DNA of 24,008 nucleotides from a virus: IMG/VR virus record IMGVR_UViG_3300045741_000043, positions 1-24,008 of that record. One strand, written 5' to 3'. The notes below the pieces were generated by a model. It worked only from the letters and a program-made list of their open reading frames with translations. It did not search any database and had not been told where the DNA came from. A program made the position numbers and the translations under genes. Positions 10,567-20,851 of this stretch are shown piece by piece; positions within the stretch are counted from its first letter, which is position 1; the number at the start of each line of letters is the position of its first letter.

Positions 10567-11768
10567 CTTAACATGATCTCCTTTGGATCGAGTGGGGTGT
10601 ACGCGTCGATGGTACTGGTGCCGAACTTAAGCTGATCACGCTTGAACATCCCGGCTTTAATCATTGTCTCAAGCGTCGGCATAATCTGCACATTCGGGAT
10701 TTTACCCTGTAGGAAGAAGATCAGCTTTGCTTGCGGTATTGGCTTCTTCGTTTTGATATACAGTTCTTGCGCGAATTGATGTACTTCATGGTTGACGTCA
10801 GCGAATCCGTGGGTTGACATTTCTGTAAAGATTTGAGGCATGTGACGTTCAGCATCATGGAGATAATGAAGCGCGGTTTCGATATGCGACTTTGTAAGAA
10901 TTAAGTCTGAGTTCTCTCCGACGGCTACGGCCATTGCGATCTTAAGGATGTGAACGATTCTACGTCCATTGTAATGCTGTAGTTTTGGATGTTCAGGCTG
11001 AGGGGCAAAGCTATTCTTATACGCTTCTTCGTAGAAAGCTTTCGCTTCTTCATCGATACTGAAATCTCCAATAAGCTCAACAACTTCTTCAAGATCCGAT
11101 CGCAACATCGCTGCAAGTTTTTTGTTCTTTTCTGGCGCGTCAAAGATAGAAGTTTTAGGTGCGCTTCCACTATAGATAAGTATAAATCGAGAGAAGAAAC
11201 CCATTCCAAAGGCTTCTTCCGGAAGTAGAACTCGAAGGTATTGCGGCTGAGTTCCTGCCACAATGTGCATGTAAGGTCCTTCAATAACCTTTTCTCCGAG
11301 GGCTCGAGTTCTGGCACGGAATATGACGCCGCAGTCATAAAGCTCGTTAAGTTGGTTAATCCAGTCATTCTCGTAGGCTGGGACAAGGTTGCCAAACTCC
11401 GATGAAGCGACGAGCATAGGATGATAAATCATAGGCCCATCAGGGGTTAGTATCGTTTTCCGACTTTCCTCTAGAATATCAATCATACCTGCTCTAGTGA
11501 TAGCCGAAGGTGCCAAGAAGAGTCCACCTGCATCAGTCCAGAATTTTCTAGCCTCTTCAATAATAATCGACTTTCCCGCCGCAGGAGGTCCAACGAGCAT
11601 AACGAAGGTGTTAGGGTAGAGTATTCCACGCGCTGTTTTAAGTCCAACTCTACGCTCAAGTGCTCCTCCGAGGATACTAATAGCTGTCCAGCGTCGCCAT
11701 ATCTCAGGTGAACCGACATTCTTTGTGTAGTCAAGAAACCCTCCTATCCAAGATTTCAGCCGTCTCAT
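10563..11768 (-). CDS. DUF3987-like P-loop ATPase, probable replicative helicase
   Basis: The protein has 401 residues. The N-terminal half carries SPEIWRRWTAISILGGALERRV, then LYPNTFVMLVGPPAAGKSIIIEEARKF with a Walker A motif GPPAAGKS at about residues 59-66. A segment LVASSEFGNLVPAYENDWINQLNELYDCG (about 122-150) follows and is typical of DUF3987 and related phage helicase-like ATPases. The C-terminal 120 residues are helical and may form a winged-helix or partner-binding region. It directly follows the polymerase gene, overlapping it by 38 nt, with no good Shine-Dalgarno, so coupled translation is likely. The inferred role is unwinding at the phage replication fork. A DNA-packaging or repair ATPase is less likely from context. 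Confidence 0.7.
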   Translation of the reverse strand: MRRLKSWIGGFLDYTKNVGSPEIWRRWTAISILGGALERRVGLKTARGILYPNTFVMLVGPPAAGKSIIIEEARKFWTDAGGLFLAPSAITRAGMIDILEESRKTILTPDGPMIYHPMLVASSEFGNLVPAYENDWINQLNELYDCGVIFRARTRALGEKVIEGPYMHIVAGTQPQYLRVLLPEEAFGMGFFSRFILIYSGSAPKTSIFDAPEKNKKLAAMLRSDLEEVVELIGDFSIDEEAKAFYEEAYKNSFAPQPEHPKLQHYNGRRIVHILKIAMAVAVGENSDLILTKSHIETALHYLHDAERHMPQIFTEMSTHGFADVNHEVHQFAQELYIKTKKPIPQAKLIFFLQGKIPNVQIMPTLETMIKAGMFKRDQLKFGTSTIDAYTPLDPKEIMLR

Positions 11769-13212
11769 TTTTCGGTGCTCTTCGAGTATCAGGCTTGTTA
11801 CGGGACAGCTTCTTTAAGCCGTAAGGATTATCGTCGGATGCCTTGCTCCAATTCCATCCGACAGCAAGGTCAGAGGGATTAGCAAATCCATTCCATTCTC
11901 TGGAGACGATCTCAGATGCTTTGAAGCAAAGCTCATCTTGATCTTCGGGGTACTGGAATAAAATGGCGTCATGGACTTGAGCGTGGAGAGTAATCTCAGA
12001 CATTTCGTACCAAAGGGCCTTGAGACCCTTATTGAGATAGTCACCGATCATTGACTGAGGAACATGAGCCACAGCTTCACGATGAGTTGCAGTGTCCCAT
12101 AAGCGGCCAAGAAACCTACGACGACGCCCAAAGGGCGTAATGAGAATACCTGTTTTTTGAAGTTCCCCAATGGTTCGAGCTTGCCAAGATTGTATTCCGG
12201 GAAAGGCGCGAAAGTAATCTGTTTGGAAAGCTTTAGTGATGTCAGTTGTGAGTTTGAGATGCTTGGCCATCGTGATTGGATTGCCGAGATAATTTGTGAG
12301 GTGGCCTCCACGCTTAGACATGTCTCGATAGCTAAAGTGCCTATAAAAATTTTGATCAGCAAGTTTCCTGTCTCCATCAAGGTCACCTGTCCAAGGATGT
12401 TTCGGCCAGACGAGCCTTGCGACGGTAGTATGGAGATCGCCAGAGTAGCAGGCTTTTGTGTATCCAGGGTCTCCACTGAGGAAGGCAACTGCCTTAGACT
12501 CAGCCTGTTCGAGGTCAAGATAGCAGAACTTTTTGCCGGGATCAGCGACGAATATCCCTCGAAGTTTCTCGGTGATGTTTTGAGCATTCATACCTCCTGC
12601 TGTGATGTTCTTTGATGAGGACCACCGGCCTGTTTCTGTGCCAGCGATATTAAAGTTGAAGCGCATTCTGCCGTCTGGATCGACGCCAGACTGAAGAACT
12701 GAGAGCTTCTTGCCATTATCTCTACGAGCGAGCATCGTGTTGATTAGCGGATTTACGAAGATGAACTCTGTAGCGAGCTTTTCCAACGCCTCGCGATCGA
12801 GCGCAAGGACTTCTTCTTTCTTCTTGCGATCGTATTTCTTCTGCTCCGGAAGTCGGAGATTCGTATGAAGCGTAGTGTAGACTTGCTTGCGACTATTTGG
12901 GTTAAGTGGCTGGTCGATTACAGCCCGACCGAAGGTCGCAAGCAGTTCGTCAATGCGAATACGCTCCGCTTCCAGGTCTTTAATAGCAGCTTGCCTACGT
13001 TCTTCATCTACGAGAATACCACGTAGCATGATTTCCATAGCTGGTGCTGCGAGTTCGCGCTCGAAATTATAAGTTGCACGAGTAATGTCAGTTAACTGCG
13101 GTAGTGTGGCCGCAAGGATTTCCTCCGTTCCAAGACAATCGAGCGCGTTGTAGACCCAGAGTGTTTCCTCTGGGTCAAGCATTTCTGCTTTATCAGAGTA
13201 TAAAATTCTCAA
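11731..13212 (-). CDS. DNA polymerase family A, polymerase domain with Exo III motif (split gene)
   Basis: The protein has 493 residues and a TTG start at 13212 supported by GGAGGA nine bases upstream; the first ATG is at codon 11. The N-terminus contains the proofreading motif Exo III (YNALD, Tyr21-Asp25), but Exo I and Exo II are absent and lie in the upstream UDG/exonuclease gene. Polymerase motifs follow: TETGRWSSS (191-199), motif A DLEQAE with Asp233, motif B RDMSKRGGHLTNYLG (Arg296, Lys300, Tyr308) and motif C QVHDA (His414-Asp415). Motif B has His304 where E. coli Pol I has Phe762, and motif C has Ala in place of the usual Glu after HD. The protein should replicate phage DNA together with the separately encoded exonuclease half. 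It overlaps the next (helicase) gene. Confidence 0.9.
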   Translation of the reverse strand: MRILYSDKAEMLDPEETLWVYNALDCLGTEEILAATLPQLTDITRATYNFERELAAPAMEIMLRGILVDEERRQAAIKDLEAERIRIDELLATFGRAVIDQPLNPNSRKQVYTTLHTNLRLPEQKKYDRKKKEEVLALDREALEKLATEFIFVNPLINTMLARRDNGKKLSVLQSGVDPDGRMRFNFNIAGTETGRWSSSKNITAGGMNAQNITEKLRGIFVADPGKKFCYLDLEQAESKAVAFLSGDPGYTKACYSGDLHTTVARLVWPKHPWTGDLDGDRKLADQNFYRHFSYRDMSKRGGHLTNYLGNPITMAKHLKLTTDITKAFQTDYFRAFPGIQSWQARTIGELQKTGILITPFGRRRRFLGRLWDTATHREAVAHVPQSMIGDYLNKGLKALWYEMSEITLHAQVHDAILFQYPEDQDELCFKASEIVSREWNGFANPSDLAVGWNWSKASDDNPYGLKKLSRNKPDTRRAPKNETAEILDRRVS

Positions 13213-13519
13213 GGGTCCGTTCCTCCACAGGTAAGCCGATTTTTCTAGCTGCCATGATTGCGTTCTCTACGCCATTCGACTTTCCGAGATCGGTATAGAC
13301 TACCATTGCGTCAGCTACGTGACGCCACGCAAGCCCCGCCTCGATCCCGAGAGTTCTCTCCTCTGACTTCAAATCATCAAGCACCTGCGGATAGAGCAGA
13401 TGACTTGCTATTGGAGACTCGCCACGACGTAAGCTATCGAGAAGACAAAGACGAGCGTAGCGAACATTGTGCTCAACATTTCCAGCATACGGGCTTTCAA
13501 GGATTACTCTCCTAATCAT
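13193..13519 (-). CDS. DUF7768-like / nucleoside deoxyribosyltransferase-fold protein, inserted in the polymerase
   Basis: The 108 residues start at ATG 13519 with GGAGA seven bases upstream; the ATG overlaps the end of the UDG/exonuclease gene by 8 nt (GATGATTAG). The sequence begins MIRRVILESPYAGNVEHN and contains ASHLLYPQ, GLAWRHVADAMVVYTDLG and a C-terminal GVENAIMAARKIGLPVEERTL. This pattern is seen in small phage and bacterial proteins of the nucleoside 2-deoxyribosyltransferase-like fold (DUF4406/DUF7768 type). Such proteins are thought to bind or modify nucleotides, but no activity is established for this group. It sits precisely between the exonuclease and polymerase parts of a family A polymerase and ends 20 nt inside the polymerase ORF. 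It may have been acquired by insertion. Confidence 0.75.
   Translation of the reverse strand: MIRRVILESPYAGNVEHNVRYARLCLLDSLRRGESPIASHLLYPQVLDDLKSEERTLGIEAGLAWRHVADAMVVYTDLGKSNGVENAIMAARKIGLPVEERTLENFIL
13213..13226 (-). promoter_or_regulatory. Shine-Dalgarno deciding the TTG start of the polymerase
   Basis: GGAGGA at 13226-13221 (minus strand) is followed after CGGACCC-type spacing by TTG at 13212. It lies inside the last codons of the deoxyribosyltransferase-like gene. It supports independent translation of the polymerase half rather than readthrough or fusion with the gene before it. Confidence 0.7.
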
Positions 13520-14570
13520 CTGATTTCTCCGAGTCCATTGAGAGCTTTGCTCTCTTGCGCATGTTTTTCCAGACAGGATTGTGGGTATACACACTTCCAA
13601 GGAAGTTTAAGTCTTTGCTCATCTCTGGTTGTAAAGCGTGATGTATGAGCATCGTATCATGTATAGTCCCCCGGATGGGGAAGCCGAGAAATTTGAACAG
13701 CCATTGCATGTCGTAGTTGCCATTTTGAAATACCTTCGAGTTAGGTGTCGCGAGTAAAGTGCGGACGCACTCCCAGGCTTCAATTTCCATCTCGTGACTT
13801 ACCCAGTACGATCCGTTATTAGTCCTACGGTCCCAGAAGGGAATGCAGATCGCGCGATCATCTGCGGAGAATCCAACACAGGTGATGTGTCGCCTGGCTG
13901 GCTTGGTTTCGATGTCAATGCTAAGGACTGCATCGCTTTTGAGAAGTCCGATCCAGCGTTTGATGTCGCCAATGCTTGGGCTAATCCAGATTTCTTTTCT
14001 TTTAGCTCTCGAAGTTGAGATTGACTTTTTGAAATCTGTAATGACAATTGGTCTGAGGGACCAGTTACGCAAGACGGCAGATGGATGATAGGTTGGCATG
14101 ATTCGACATCCAGATAGAAGCTTGGACTCAGCCACGTACCCTCGGAGTTTCGAGACACCAGTATGCCCAAAGAGCGCCCAGAGGGCCGAATTACCCAGCG
14201 CAAAACATAAGTCCCATCCACGAGAAAGCTCTTCTTGAAGTCGCCATACTTCGGGTAAGTATTTGGGACGAAGATACTTCCCGGCACCCGCAAGTGGTTG
14301 TAGGGTATAGGTAGCGGGCCAACGAGGGTCTGGTTGCTCCAGTTTGATTGCCGCAAGCTCTCGGATGACATCGATCTTTGAAAGACAAAGGTTCCGTAGA
14401 TCATTGCGATCTGGTCTAAGATTGAAGACGTTTGTATAGTGGATGCTCGTCGGGTCGATGCCCGCTTCTTTGAACATTTTTCTGAGCTCTTGTCCTGACT
14501 GGCCGACGAACGGCCGCTTCGCGATTTCTTCCTGCTCACCATATGCTTCTCCAACAGCGATGATTTTCAT
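13512..14570 (-). CDS. uracil-DNA-glycosylase-like domain fused to 3'-5' exonuclease (Exo I/II) half of a polymerase
   Basis: The protein has 352 residues. Residues 1-175 carry the UDG family 4/5 signatures: GEAYGEQE (7-14), PFVGQSG (20-26), TNVFNLRP (46-53) and YHPSAVLRN (161-169). The N-terminal CxxC of family 4 iron-sulfur enzymes is absent, so the cluster is probably lost. Residues about 205-345 are a DnaQ-like exonuclease: Exo I DIE (Asp219, Glu221) and Exo II FQNGNYDMQW (Asp287), followed by HDTMLIHHALQP. It then stops, before Exo III. Exo III is in the polymerase ORF two genes on. Related phages carry these parts as one chain, so this is a split polymerase. GGAGG lies 4 nt before the ATG. 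It follows directly after an intrinsic terminator. Confidence 0.85.
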   Translation of the reverse strand: MKIIAVGEAYGEQEEIAKRPFVGQSGQELRKMFKEAGIDPTSIHYTNVFNLRPDRNDLRNLCLSKIDVIRELAAIKLEQPDPRWPATYTLQPLAGAGKYLRPKYLPEVWRLQEELSRGWDLCFALGNSALWALFGHTGVSKLRGYVAESKLLSGCRIMPTYHPSAVLRNWSLRPIVITDFKKSISTSRAKRKEIWISPSIGDIKRWIGLLKSDAVLSIDIETKPARRHITCVGFSADDRAICIPFWDRRTNNGSYWVSHEMEIEAWECVRTLLATPNSKVFQNGNYDMQWLFKFLGFPIRGTIHDTMLIHHALQPEMSKDLNFLGSVYTHNPVWKNMRKRAKLSMDSEKSDD

Positions 14571-14643: not shown

Positions 14644-15147
14644 TTATTTACTGACTCCTGCTGCGGCTTTGAAAGCGGAGACGGCGTTTCCAACTCCAGT
14701 AGCAAGTGCGCTACCAGGACCGTTTGGCTTTGGAGGATTTGCCGAGAGAGTTCCGCCAGAGAGATTGAGTGGAGTTTGAACTGTGCTAGACTTTCCAGTA
14801 TCGAGTGGCTTACCAGCTTGTCCGCTTTTATCACTCGAGCCAAGATTTGATGTGGCTCCAAATGCGGCCATTTCACCTGCAATTGCGAAATATACTGCTC
14901 CATCAATGTAGTTATCCTCGTGGTTGATAGATGCAGGAATGCGACTGATCTTGGCAAGGACCATAGTCATTGCTGCATCGTGTGCTGAAAATTGCATTCC
15001 GAAGTACGCGGAAAGCAGTTCTGCAAAGCGAGTGAGATTTACAATCGGCTCGCCATAGGTAGCGGCTCTGTCTCCAGTTGTAAGGCCAATTCCTTTTTCC
15101 AGGATATTGGCTCTAATGGGCTTTTCAGTTTGCACTGGCTGACTCAT
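14644..15147 (-). CDS. DUF6378-family protein with low-complexity C-terminal tail
   Basis: The protein has 167 residues. Residues 20-95 (LTTGDRAATYGEPIVNLTRFAELLSAYFG...MVLAKISRIPASINHEDNYIDGAVYFAIAGE) match the pattern of the short DUF6378 phage protein family (GDRxxTYGdp...KxxRi...xDnyxDaxxYxai). Family members usually end near there. This one has an extra 70-residue Ser/Gly/Thr/Pro-rich tail, then a hydrophobic SALATGVGNAVSAFKAAAG end. The biochemical function of the family is unknown. The start overlaps the previous gene by 23 nt, with AGGA upstream. A strong terminator follows directly after the stop. Confidence 0.75.
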   Translation of the reverse strand: MSQPVQTEKPIRANILEKGIGLTTGDRAATYGEPIVNLTRFAELLSAYFGMQFSAHDAAMTMVLAKISRIPASINHEDNYIDGAVYFAIAGEMAAFGATSNLGSSDKSGQAGKPLDTGKSSTVQTPLNLSGGTLSANPPKPNGPGSALATGVGNAVSAFKAAAGVSK

Positions 15148-16734: not shown

Positions 16735-18072
16735 CTAAAACTCAACTTTGACTTTGTTACTCACTCGCTCAAGACGCAATTGTGTCTCAAGTTTCTCTTG
16801 TGCTGGTGTCACTGCCAGGACATTAATTTCAAGCCCCAAAGCGCGATTAGCATTGAGAGCGGCTGCAGCACGAATGGATGTTCCAGAACCACACGTAGGA
16901 TCAAGAAAGTCAGTGAGTGGTCCAACTGCCATATTAAAGAAATGCTTAAGCATTGCAATAGGCTTGGCACTAAGATGACCCTCCACATTCTTAGCTGTTG
17001 GACAGGAGTACACATCATTCACGACGTTGTTAATAAAGCGATCTCCACGTGAAGCAAAGAGCGCGGTTTCATACACATGCTTGGGACGGCGTCTAAAGTC
17101 CGAGGCAATTCCGGCTCCGTCTGATTTGTGCCAGATGATTGGAAGTTCCACTACGAAAAGATTATTCGCTTTGAAAAGCGTAAGCAGTTCATCATAATAC
17201 TTCATATGGAACCAGAAGAGAAGATGTGTGCTATCGAGCGAGATTCGGTCGAGATTTTCCACGAGACAATTAGTGAGTTCCCAGAAAAGCTCCGGACTAT
17301 CTTCGTACTGCGAGTCATCTCTCTCGGAGCCCGCAGAAGCGCTGTCCTGGAAATTAATGCCGTATGGAAAATCGCAGTGGATGAAATTAAATTTCTCTCC
17401 CTGATAAAATGGAGCCCACTTAAGGAAGTCTCCTTCTTTGATCTCGTACTGCGCAGACGGTTCCATTGGCGCTTCCGCAGTAGCAATATTCTCTTCAACG
17501 CTGTTGCTCCGTAAAGGAGGGATAGAAGAATGAAGCTTTGAAAGTTCAGTATCGAGTGCAATCTTTCTCCGATTATCTACAATCGCGATTGCTTGCGAAG
17601 CACTTTTGCACGCGAGTACCTTGGGGTCGGCTTTGAGGACTTCTTCTGCGACTTGGAGATACTTGGCAACGTGGGCGACAGAGAGTCCGATGTATTCAGC
17701 TGTTTCAGTTGCAGTCTCACTTCCAAGGAGAACGTGCAGTTGTTCGACAGCAAGAACTCTTTCTTGCCAAGATATGTCTTGGCGACGGAGGTTCTCGTCG
17801 AGTTCAACGAGCTTCTGATCTGTCGTAGAGAGAGTTCCAAAATATCTGGCAGGGATTGAGCCCTGGCCCATTTGAATAAAAGCTTCAAGGCGTCGTCGTC
17901 CAGCGAGGAGATTTCCGGAGTCATCCAAGATAATTGGATGGAGAAGCCCGTGTTTTTTAATGCTTGAGATAAGGTCATCTATTCCATTTAACTCCTTACG
18001 GTGACGCTCGGAGTCGTCGAATTTAATCTCTGTAAGTGGTACGAGCACCACTTGTGGCATTGCGTCTGACAT
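16735..18072 (-). CDS. ParB-domain / DNA methyltransferase fusion (beta-class MTase)
   Basis: The protein has 445 residues and GGAG five bases before the ATG. Residues 1-150 are a ParB/Srx-like domain (VPLTEIKFDDSERHR, GNLLAGRRRLEAF at 53-65, NLRRQDISWQER at 94-105) with a helix-turn-helix (122-140). The C-terminal domain is a DNA methyltransferase with motif IV DFPYG (234-238, a Phe variant of DPPY) before motif I DPTCGSGTSI (391-400), the order of beta-class N4-cytosine/N6-adenine enzymes. Phages use such fusions for genome modification; ParB may give sequence recognition. It stops 13 nt before the TIGR-type array, so it can be cotranscribed with it. Target sequence and base are unknown. 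Confidence 0.85.
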   Translation of the reverse strand: MSDAMPQVVLVPLTEIKFDDSERHRKELNGIDDLISSIKKHGLLHPIILDDSGNLLAGRRRLEAFIQMGQGSIPARYFGTLSTTDQKLVELDENLRRQDISWQERVLAVEQLHVLLGSETATETAEYIGLSVAHVAKYLQVAEEVLKADPKVLACKSASQAIAIVDNRRKIALDTELSKLHSSIPPLRSNSVEENIATAEAPMEPSAQYEIKEGDFLKWAPFYQGEKFNFIHCDFPYGINFQDSASAGSERDDSQYEDSPELFWELTNCLVENLDRISLDSTHLLFWFHMKYYDELLTLFKANNLFVVELPIIWHKSDGAGIASDFRRRPKHVYETALFASRGDRFINNVVNDVYSCPTAKNVEGHLSAKPIAMLKHFFNMAVGPLTDFLDPTCGSGTSIRAAAALNANRALGLEINVLAVTPAQEKLETQLRLERVSNKVKVEF

Positions 18073-18229: not shown

Positions 18230-18673
18230 CTATAGCTTGAACGTGCTGTCAATGTTAGCGAAGACATCTCCGGTACGCTGGCTCGTTCCATGACGGACCA
18301 TAATTCCGATCTCGTTATTTGGAGCCTCGTTGATAACGTCCCCGAGAGGACGCCCAGAGTCATGCAGTCCAAGCTGCTCTACAAGGAATTCTTTTAGCCG
18401 GAAGAGGCTGTCCTTGGTGAGCCAGTAGGTAGTTTTCAGTTCACGATCGGAGTAGTCGAAGGAATTTGCGAGTGCATCATCCTCTGTCTCGATTGGCTGA
18501 AGCACTTTGAATTTGAACTCCGCTCCGGGAGTATTCTTCTTATCCGACTTCACATATGTGAAGCCTGTGATATGTGCACGATACTTACCCTGCGGGATAG
18601 GCTTCGGTTTCTCGATCGCCTCCATTTGGGTATTCAAGATTGATTCGAAGTCTGCTGCTTTTGCTTCGCTCAT
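18230..18673 (-). CDS. putative ssDNA-binding / recombination-associated protein, 147 aa
   Basis: The start at 18673 is in an ATGA overlap with the previous gene, with GGAAG ten bases upstream; an alternative start at 18700 lacks such support. The sequence (KPIPQGKYRAHITGFTYVKSDKKNTPGAEFKFKVLQPIET...TTYWLTKDSLFRLKEFLVEQLGL...GIMVRHGTSQRTGDVFANID) has the pattern of an OB-like phage protein often encoded next to Sak4-like ATPases. The GKYxAxITxxxxxxxKNTPGxEFxFxVLQP segment is characteristic of that group. By analogy it may coat single-stranded DNA for recombination or replication. The family is recognised only by pattern; no direct evidence of DNA binding is available here. Confidence 0.5.
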   Translation of the reverse strand: MSEAKAADFESILNTQMEAIEKPKPIPQGKYRAHITGFTYVKSDKKNTPGAEFKFKVLQPIETEDDALANSFDYSDRELKTTYWLTKDSLFRLKEFLVEQLGLHDSGRPLGDVINEAPNNEIGIMVRHGTSQRTGDVFANIDSTFKL

Positions 18674-18867
18674 GATTTTGTAACTTCCTTTACGATCCAC
18701 ATGACTGATTGTTCGAGATTTGTGAGTGCAAGAGATTTGAAACGCGACGGCGTGTCCATTTCAAAGAGTGCTTCAAGTTCTTCTGCTTTCATTTTAATCT
18801 GTTCGAGTCGGTGTTTCTCCTCTTCTGTCAGTGTACGATACTTGGTTCGGAAAGTATTGGTGGCCAT
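18670..18867 (-). CDS. Acb2/Tad1-hairpin-like anti-defence protein
   Basis: The 65 residues start at ATG 18867, in a TAATG overlap with the Sak4-like gene. The sequence has a basic N-terminus (FRTKYRTLTEEEKHRLEQIKMKAEELEALFE), then SRFKSLALTNLEQSVMWIVKEVTKS. This two-helix pattern (LTEEEKxxIxxIKxxAxELxxLxE...SRExSLAxTxLExAVMWxVKxIT) is that of the Acb2/Tad1 hairpin family, in which characterised phage proteins bind cyclic-nucleotide signals of CBASS or Thoeris defence. The protein is shorter than Tad1 and close in size to the core of Acb2. The family match is strong by pattern. Which signal, if any, this copy binds is unknown. Confidence 0.7.
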   Translation of the reverse strand: MATNTFRTKYRTLTEEEKHRLEQIKMKAEELEALFEMDTPSRFKSLALTNLEQSVMWIVKEVTKS

Positions 18868-19673
18868 TAAGTTTGCTCCCACAGTTTGAAGATTTCAGCG
18901 AGCCCGGTTTCGGCCGGAAGTTCTCTTGGAGCGTTAAGAATAGGGCACTTGGCCCCTACGACTCCTTCAGGCTTTGTGTAAATTACACGCTTGGTATTAT
19001 CTCCGACGCCCTTTGTCTTAGCATAGAGCATCATATTAAAGTACCTTCCGACTTCGGGCGGAAGATTCTTACCAAGGGCAGTTGGAAAGCCCTTGGTCAC
19101 AGCTCCTTCTTCATTCTCCTGATACTTGACGTGCGAGAGAATGACGACATTACACTTTACGTCTGAGGAATAGAGAATTGCGAGAGACTTCTCGAGCATA
19201 GACATGGCTGTGCCCCAATCGGACTGCCACGGCTGCTGCCCAGCGCGGTTGTTGTTCGCAGTTACGTAATTAAGTGCTGCCTTGCCCATGAAGGTCAGCG
19301 AGTCGATTACTAAAATCCGCTTCTTGTCCCAAGTACTAACTTTGCCAAAGTTTTCTTTGGAAACGGAGTCAATCCATCCTGAAGTTCCAAGAAACTTGAT
19401 AGCTTGAGGAAACGCTTTAGGGCTAAGGACACCAAGGCCGGTCCCAATTTGGGTATAAGAATCTTGAAGCGTTTCAATGTGACACTTGACCGTATCCAGC
19501 TTACCTTTAAGAGCGGACTGGAGAACGTCAGTACCCTCATCGAAGTCCAGTATAAACATCTCGTATCCTGCGAGTAGCAGGGATGCCAGGGCACCCGTTT
19601 TACCAGAGCCGGTATCGCCGATGAGCAGGAGTTTGAGCGGCTGCGAGGATTTTTTCTCAGCGAGGCTTGGCAT
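18867..19673 (-). CDS. Sak4-like RecA-fold ATPase
   Basis: The protein has 268 residues and a Walker A motif GDTGSGKT (residues 19-26) and Walker B LVID (121-124, in KRILVIDSLTFMG). GGGAG lies 5 nt before the ATG. The layout matches the AAA_24/Sak4 group of phage recombination ATPases: an N-terminal LLLIGDTGSGKTGALASL, then ILDFDEG, and a C-terminal VVILSHV segment with LPPEVGRYFNMMLYA. These are RecA-like single-strand annealing or strand-exchange enzymes and usually work with a phage SSB, which fits the gene two places downstream at 18230. No DNA-binding loops can be assigned with confidence. It overlaps by 17 nt the tiny membrane ORF. Confidence 0.75.
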   Translation of the reverse strand: MPSLAEKKSSQPLKLLLIGDTGSGKTGALASLLLAGYEMFILDFDEGTDVLQSALKGKLDTVKCHIETLQDSYTQIGTGLGVLSPKAFPQAIKFLGTSGWIDSVSKENFGKVSTWDKKRILVIDSLTFMGKAALNYVTANNNRAGQQPWQSDWGTAMSMLEKSLAILYSSDVKCNVVILSHVKYQENEEGAVTKGFPTALGKNLPPEVGRYFNMMLYAKTKGVGDNTKRVIYTKPEGVVGAKCPILNAPRELPAETGLAEIFKLWEQT

Positions 19674-19731: not shown

Positions 19732-19916
19732 TAGAAGTTCTCCGCATCGCGTTCAGCGAGATCGTAGAGATCACCGATGAAACGTGCAAAGTCTATAAAG
19801 ATTTCTTGAAGATATGCTGGATTGATGCCACCAGATGCAAGAGCATCAACTTTCATACGAACATCTTTGAAGCGCGACTTCAAAGCTTGCGTCTCTTCTT
19901 TCGTTATCTGGCTCAT
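19731..19916 (-). CDS. small helical protein of unknown function, 61 aa
   Basis: The start at 19916 (MSQITKEETQALKSRFKD) is in an ATGA overlap with the nuclease gene, with AAAGGAAG four bases upstream. The 61 residues form a charged helical protein: a basic N-terminal helix (ETQALKSRFKDVRMKVDALASG), then a GINPAYLQEIFIDFARFIGDLYDLAERD acidic/aromatic helix. Nothing identifies a family. It lies between the PD-(D/E)XK nuclease and the Sak4-like ATPase, so it may assist recombination, by context. Confidence 0.6.
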   Translation of the reverse strand: MSQITKEETQALKSRFKDVRMKVDALASGGINPAYLQEIFIDFARFIGDLYDLAERDAENF

Positions 19917-20851
19917 TCCGCTTCCTTTCTCAAGATGGGGTCCCAAAAGACTTGTTCAAACTTTGCTGATAAATGGCCAATTCTTATGGATGGTGGTGAG
20001 CCACAGACAGCACGATAAGGACAACCAAAGCAAGCTTCAGTATTCCTCGGAACTTTAAGAGGATCAAGTTCGGGATTGTTAGCAAAAATTCTAGTTGCCT
20101 GTTGAATGTGATAGACGGCATCTTTCATCCACTCGTCACGTTGAGACTCTCCAAGGACTATGTAGCCTTTCCCGAAGCGAGTGAAATTAACTCCGCACTG
20201 AATGGCATCGACGAGGACACCTGCCACGGGTAAGTGGAATACGATCTCGGCTGCTACGAGGTAGCCGGGAAGCTGCGTCGAAGGGGTATACCCGGCGAAG
20301 TAATCCTGACCGATGGCATTCTTTGTGGTTTTGTAGTCCTTGACCCAGATGGAGTCTACGTTATCCACGACCACCTTATCCATATGACCGCAGTATGCGG
20401 CAGGTTCGCCAAGAATATCAAAGCCCAAGTCGTATTTGAAAGCGAGTTCGATAGCGGCAGTGCCGTTGACAGTGTAAGTATCATCGTGCTGGAAAGCTTC
20501 GGTGTGCCAGACACAGGCACGCAGAGCGTTCCAGAAGTTCTTGGCTGTGTCGTCAGTTTTCCAAGTGCCGTATTCTTCAATCAGGCCACGAGTCATGGTA
20601 GCCTGGGCTTCATCATGTAGGTCTCCAAGTGATCTGCACTTCCAATAGAACTCGAGGCCCTTATGGACCATTGAGCCGAAGTCCAAGTGGACTGAAGAGG
20701 ATTTCGTTCTGTAGCCGAGGACGATTTGATAGAAGTACCGTGTGGGGCACTTCATGTACGTCCCGAGGGACGTGGAGTCCCAAGCAACTTGCACTTGGAT
20801 TTGCTCTGAATGGAAACTAGCTCGTTTTGGAATTTTCAATGGCTCCGACAT
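19913..20851 (-). CDS. PD-(D/E)XK nuclease, Cas4/RecB-like, with likely iron-sulfur cysteines
   Basis: The protein has 312 residues and GGAG nine bases before the ATG. Catalytic motifs of a Cas4/AddB-type nuclease are visible: FGSMVHKGLE (Gly59, His63), GHMDKVV (Asp158) and WVKDYKTT (Asp172, Lys174), then QLPGY (Gln193). Cys35 in TYMKCPTRYF and Cys274, Cys277, Cys283 in ACFGCPYRAVC match the four-cysteine pattern of [4Fe-4S]-carrying Cas4/AddB nucleases. It is encoded with a Sak4-like ATPase and a UvrD-type helicase in the same operon, suggesting a phage end-processing and recombination set. Exonuclease polarity is unknown. Confidence 0.85.
   Translation of the reverse strand: MSEPLKIPKRASFHSEQIQVQVAWDSTSLGTYMKCPTRYFYQIVLGYRTKSSSVHLDFGSMVHKGLEFYWKCRSLGDLHDEAQATMTRGLIEEYGTWKTDDTAKNFWNALRACVWHTEAFQHDDTYTVNGTAAIELAFKYDLGFDILGEPAAYCGHMDKVVVDNVDSIWVKDYKTTKNAIGQDYFAGYTPSTQLPGYLVAAEIVFHLPVAGVLVDAIQCGVNFTRFGKGYIVLGESQRDEWMKDAVYHIQQATRIFANNPELDPLKVPRNTEACFGCPYRAVCGSPPSIRIGHLSAKFEQVFWDPILRKEAE

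Follow-up and report, generated by a model that had tools for sequence, protein, structure and literature searches.

A phage recombination operon encodes a 65-residue Acb2/Tad1 hairpin-family protein, a probable compact Acb2-type sponge

We describe a 65-residue protein, encoded within a predicted early recombination operon of a phage, that is firmly supported as a member of the Acb2/Tad1 hairpin family (PF24729) and that we consider, with a probability of roughly 70%, to be a compact cyclic-oligonucleotide sponge of the Acb2 branch directed against CBASS. The window, by which we mean the whole stretch of DNA analysed here (24,008 bases, a complete IMG/VR record), probably represents part of a larger phage genome. 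Both the family and its mechanism have been described before, and so has the structure of a compact homologue; the window adds a confident minimal member (65 aa) to the phage sponge family, an accessory gene slipped into a Sak4-SSB operon with clean start and stop overlaps, and a view of a large uncharacterised branch, with threonine at the position of F82 in T4 Acb2, whose members occur in viral contigs and alphaproteobacterial genomes and whose ligand is directly testable.

Results

The preliminary description had placed a 65-residue reading frame at 18670-18867; this frame exists and lies on the minus strand, a point left unstated there, running from 18867 down to 18670 as MATNTFRTKYRTLTEEEKHRLEQIKMKAEELEALFEMDTPSRFKSLALTNLEQSVMWIVKEVTKS followed by TGA, and the plus strand of the same interval is interrupted by stops. 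Its ATG overlaps the TAA stop of the preceding Sak4-like gene (a TAATG junction), its own TGA shares bases with the following start codon, also an ATG (an ATGA junction), and a putative ribosome-binding site, GGGAG, read directly from the sequence and assigned from the consensus, lies 8 nt 5' of the ATG (18876-18880, minus strand). Because of these junctions and the GGGAG site, we regard the frame as a real gene. A longer version starting at a GTG (18882) was set aside, since the ATG that overlaps the Sak4 stop and follows the GGGAG site was judged the better start.

Immediately upstream lies a gene for a Sak4-like ssDNA-annealing ATPase (18867-19673, minus strand; PF13479 AAA_24, E=8.9e-18; PHROG 124, E=1.2e-26), as proposed earlier, and the same operon carries a PD-(D/E)XK exonuclease gene (19913-20851, minus strand; PF12705, E=1.1e-18; PHROG 1218). 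The gene immediately downstream (18230-18673, minus strand; 147 aa from the ATG at 18673) gave no direct family match in Pfam or PHROG, and its SSB-like character follows from a transitive link, in which its product matches Kuura_031 of Caulobacter phage Kuura (E=5e-5) and Kuura_031 in turn matches PHROG 378 (SSB; E=4e-5). Of the ssDNA-binding neighbour suggested previously, an adjoining SSB-like gene therefore stands, through Kuura_031 only, and a direct assignment does not. Judged from sequence, the Sak4-like, exonuclease, SSB-like and hairpin genes form a predicted early operon.

Several other minus-strand genes of the window deserve mention in their own right. A family-A DNA polymerase appears to be split (11731-14570), with a UDG-like N-terminus and DEDD exonuclease motifs, recognized by eye, at 13512-14570, apart from the polymerase-domain gene at 11731-13212, and with a small ORF (13193-13600) between the two parts; phage Kuura shares this arrangement. 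The gene at 14644-15147 carries the PHROG 474 label 'phosphofructokinase', which looks wrong for a small phage domain protein. In the early region, the product of 15345-16151 matches PHROG 4285 'transposase' (E=1e-37) and by eye resembles IS110-type transposases in their C-terminal part, with no catalytic part evident. Finally, in the protein encoded by 16735-18072, a ParB-N-like domain is joined to an N6/N4 DNA methyltransferase.

The proposed membership in the Acb2/Tad1 hairpin family proved firm by HMM search, by comparison of profiles with the PDB and by fold comparison. In a Pfam profile search, PF24729 matched the protein with 55.2 bits (E=8.2e-15), about twice the curated gathering cut-off of 27 bits, over residues 9-63 and nearly the whole profile; as a yardstick, this model gives T4 Vs.4 (T4 Acb2) 71 bits and the 8h2j/8ixz Acb2 67 bits. 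The protein also matched PHROG 1454, of unknown function, and PHROG 717, the latter being the family in which homologues of T4 Vs.4 were reported (PMC10097602), and an NCBIfam search gave no meaningful match. Viral contigs yielded 23 homologues with 48-62% identity and E-values down to 2e-19, calculated relative to the candidate stretches. Given this and the PF24729 E-value, the resemblance to the family exceeds chance expectation by far. A single-sequence phmmer search of the PDB found no match, and profiles were required. When a profile of 71 window-type sequences, with no known Acb2 among them, was run against all PDB sequences, the Pseudomonas phage Acb2 known as p26 ranked first at a modest E=0.0035, followed by Tad1 entries (E=0.043-0.075, with one unrelated chain among them), by 'Acb2 homolog 43' (9ptq, E=0.12) and, further down, by Vs.4 (E=1.2); with the T4 and 8h2j Acb2 sequences added, the profile reached 9ptq at E=3.8e-4 and Tad1 at E=6e-4. 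An hhalign comparison of our first alignment with T4 Vs.4 alone was weak, the sequences of that alignment being too few and too similar.

An AlphaFold2 model built from an alignment of the window protein with viral-contig homologues (mean pLDDT 91.9) predicts two antiparallel helices, 15-36 and 42-64, and no strands. In a Foldseek search of the PDB with this model, the first 17 of 44 matches were all Acb2 (Vs.4 included) or Tad1 chains, the Acb2 chains with probabilities of 0.96-0.99 and 8h2x with a TM score of 0.77 and an rmsd of 1.3 A; the E-values were above 0.1, as expected because the protein is small (65 residues) and a helical hairpin. VIA-align gave a Z of 6.6 to Acb2, tied with unrelated helical proteins, and was given no weight. 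Our assignment of the predicted fold rests on the Foldseek ranking together with the sequence evidence. The protein has the Acb2 architecture, namely a short N-terminal segment and a hairpin (residues 9-63) with no further domain, whereas Tad1 begins with a beta-sheet domain that contributes to the gcADPR pocket (PMC12043709), the SBSphiJ7 Tad1 being 142 aa long. Because only about nine residues precede the hairpin and the beta domain is absent, we regard the protein as Acb2-like in architecture and reject membership in Tad1, and the anti-Thoeris role by the Tad1 mechanism that had also been entertained finds no support.

We then compared the residues known to matter in T4 Vs.4, in which Y8, H11, K23, R79 and F82 contact cGAMP, L29, A66, A73 and A77 contribute to the hexamer, T12 caps a helix and S74 affects binding (PMC10097602). 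By alignment, the contact positions correspond to Y10, L13, K25, K60 and T63 of the window protein, in that order, the oligomer positions to L31, A47, S54 and I58, and T12, S74 and T68 to T14, V55 and T49. Among the 71 sequences, Y10, K25, K60, M56, W57 and T63 are invariant, and T49 and R42 are each present in 70; in a much wider set of 13 sequences that includes the T4 and 8h2j Acb2 proteins, only Y10, T49 and M56 remain invariant and K25, R42 and W57 nearly so, with the proviso that the homologue sets were gathered by patterns from the hairpin motif and that the conservation of EQSVMW is therefore partly by construction. As T68M reduces the affinity of T4 Acb2 (PMC12657230), three of the family's best-conserved positions, as aligned, are ones known in T4 to contact the ligand or to influence its binding. 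Loss of the ligand-contact residues, which the preliminary description had named as evidence against its proposal, was not found as such: most of the positions known for Acb2 appear to be kept, but of the five T4 contacts Y8 and K23 are identical, R79 is K and H11 is L, and the point is touched in part by the threonine at the F82 position.

This threonine deserves attention because loss of F82 cuts the affinity of T4 Acb2 more than 25-fold (PMC10097602). It is found at that position in nearly all relatives and is thus the norm of the branch and no private loss. In addition, the proven 8h2j Acb2, as aligned here, has L, M, I and A at the positions of T4 H11, S74, A77 and F82, and since this active protein departs there too, such departures alone are no argument for lost function. 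In T4 Acb2, A77I is a loss-of-function change (PMC10097602); we considered inactivity on this ground and dropped it, as the 8h2j Acb2 has isoleucine at this very position and one solved Tad1 has leucine.

The replacement of F82 by threonine may nevertheless mean that ligand preference differs from that of T4 Acb2. A tentative alternative, which we hold to be possible but doubtful, is that the hairpin is a sponge for a signal other than the classic CBASS dinucleotides, such as cyclic tri- or oligoadenylates, a cADPR isomer or another molecule. The changes of F82 to T, H11 to L and S74 to V relative to T4 and the loss of about 20 residues from the distal hairpin would fit this proposal, as would the inclusion in the family of Tad1, whose hairpin shares the R..A..T..E..MW motif and which is known to bind trinucleotides too (PMC12043709); however, the dinucleotide-site contacts Y8 and K23 are invariant in the window's branch, which counts against it.

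The setting of the gene varies among phages. The closest collinear phage that we found, Kuura, has counterparts of the polymerase, the primase/helicase, the exonuclease-domain gene, the PD-(D/E)XK exonuclease, Sak4 and SSB, but its SSB gene directly follows Sak4, 59 nt apart, with no hairpin gene between them, and PF24729 found no match in the whole 43.8-kb Kuura genome. The hairpin gene sits elsewhere in the early region of L059 and L079, two viral contigs whose Sak4 and exonuclease genes are related to those of the window. About 48 non-redundant hairpin loci had flanks long enough for comparison, and near the others of this set no gene related to the Sak4 or exonuclease of the window was detected. 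Clustering of the neighbours of these loci, in which ORFs on high-GC contigs were picked crudely and of which we use only the negative result, revealed no common neighbourhood, and when viral contigs were searched with Sak4 for sites lacking the hairpin gene, no relative was returned. Homologues lie after a terminase-like gene (L080), without Sak4; between the annotated head-tail adaptor and stopper of Sinorhizobium phage Aussie (L116, 4950-5186), an odd place for a classic early anti-defence gene; upstream of an exonuclease/RecT pair in ctCJ8213; and beside ArpU in Paenibacillus phage Sitara, again without Sak4. The named genomes that carry the nearest bacterial copies are those of alphaproteobacteria, and Caulobacter is the host of the nearest collinear phage. 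Two Azospirillum homologues (L033, 5722-6297; L034, 5938-6261) have an insert of about 25-45 residues between the helices and represent a longer variant of the window's branch.

This coming and going between modules is the behaviour of anti-defence cargo and unlike that of a Sak4 or SSB partner, and the non-conserved setting fits an accessory anti-defence gene that was probably inserted into the early operon. The suggestion that an anti-defence gene hides among recombination genes is thus supported, as an accessory insertion, by the absence of the gene from Kuura and by the homologues in other modules. A more far-reaching version, that the compact F82-less branch forms a sponge class of its own, whose ligand is unlike those of Acb2 and Tad1, and moves as a cassette between phage modules such as the recombination and head-tail operons, seems to us unlikely. 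The apparent translational coupling between the Sak4-like and SSB-like genes could instead mark the protein as a small Sak4/SSB accessory, a non-anti-defence part of the recombination and replication operon that happens to have a hairpin fold, but this is very unlikely in view of the adjacent Sak4 and SSB genes of Kuura, the displaced hairpin genes of L059 and L079, the homologues without Sak4 in L080, Aussie and Sitara, and the coincidence of the conserved residues with cyclic-nucleotide contacts. A decayed member that has lost ligand binding, to which the altered F82 and A77 equivalents and a third-position GC below that of most neighbours might point, is the least credible of all, given the intact reading frame, the good ribosome-binding site, the tight overlaps and the retention of all family-invariant residues in a branch where threonine at F82 is normal.

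Discussion

For the Acb2-type sponge that we favour, oligomer formation, ligand and action against CBASS are inferred from characterised members of the family. By analogy with the trimer of dimers formed by Acb2, the hairpin (helices 15-36 and 42-64) would oligomerize, and the resulting assembly would bind cyclic oligonucleotide alarm signals by means of Y10, K25, R42, T49 and K60. The signals would be held intact and undegraded, so that CBASS-type effectors would stay off, and co-translation with early recombination and replication genes would ensure that the sponge is present early, before the alarm peaks. Because threonine replaces F82 and the hairpin is some 20 residues shorter than in the T4 and Pseudomonas-phage Acb2 proteins, the ligand range may differ, and we would guess, for example, at a greater share of cyclic trinucleotides than of dinucleotides. 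Our literature searches found no ligand spectrum for the branch with threonine at the F82 position, and those for PF24729 and 9ptq returned no paper beyond a review.

Among known systems, the Pseudomonas phage Acb2 p26 (8h2j/8h2x/8ixz) has the PF24729 hairpin in common with the window protein and is its best profile match in the PDB. The two share the YR-L start, K26 and R67 of p26 (the latter at the start of helix 2), T and M, and both have isoleucine at the A77 position; they differ in that p26 has 92-94 aa against 65 in the window, with about 24 residues absent between the window helices, and has alanine in place of W57, and identity is about 22%. T4 Acb2/Vs.4 (7uq2, PHROG 717), with 24% identity, shares the Pfam family and the fold, and its Y8, T12, K23, L29, F33, A66, T68, M75 and W76 are conserved in the window protein, whereas F82, H11, S74, A77 and R79 are replaced by T, L, V, I and K and about 20 residues are missing between the helices. 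Tad1 (7uav, 8kbb-8kbh; SBSphiJ7) has the motif of its C-terminal hairpin in common (the arginine, A-x-T, E and MW), but the window protein consists of the hairpin only and, without the N-terminal beta-sheet domain, has no gcADPR pocket of the Tad1 kind. Finally, 'Acb2 homolog 43' (9ptq, 76 aa) is a solved short homologue from a sequence branch different from that of the window, and it shows that compact members of this family are already under study.
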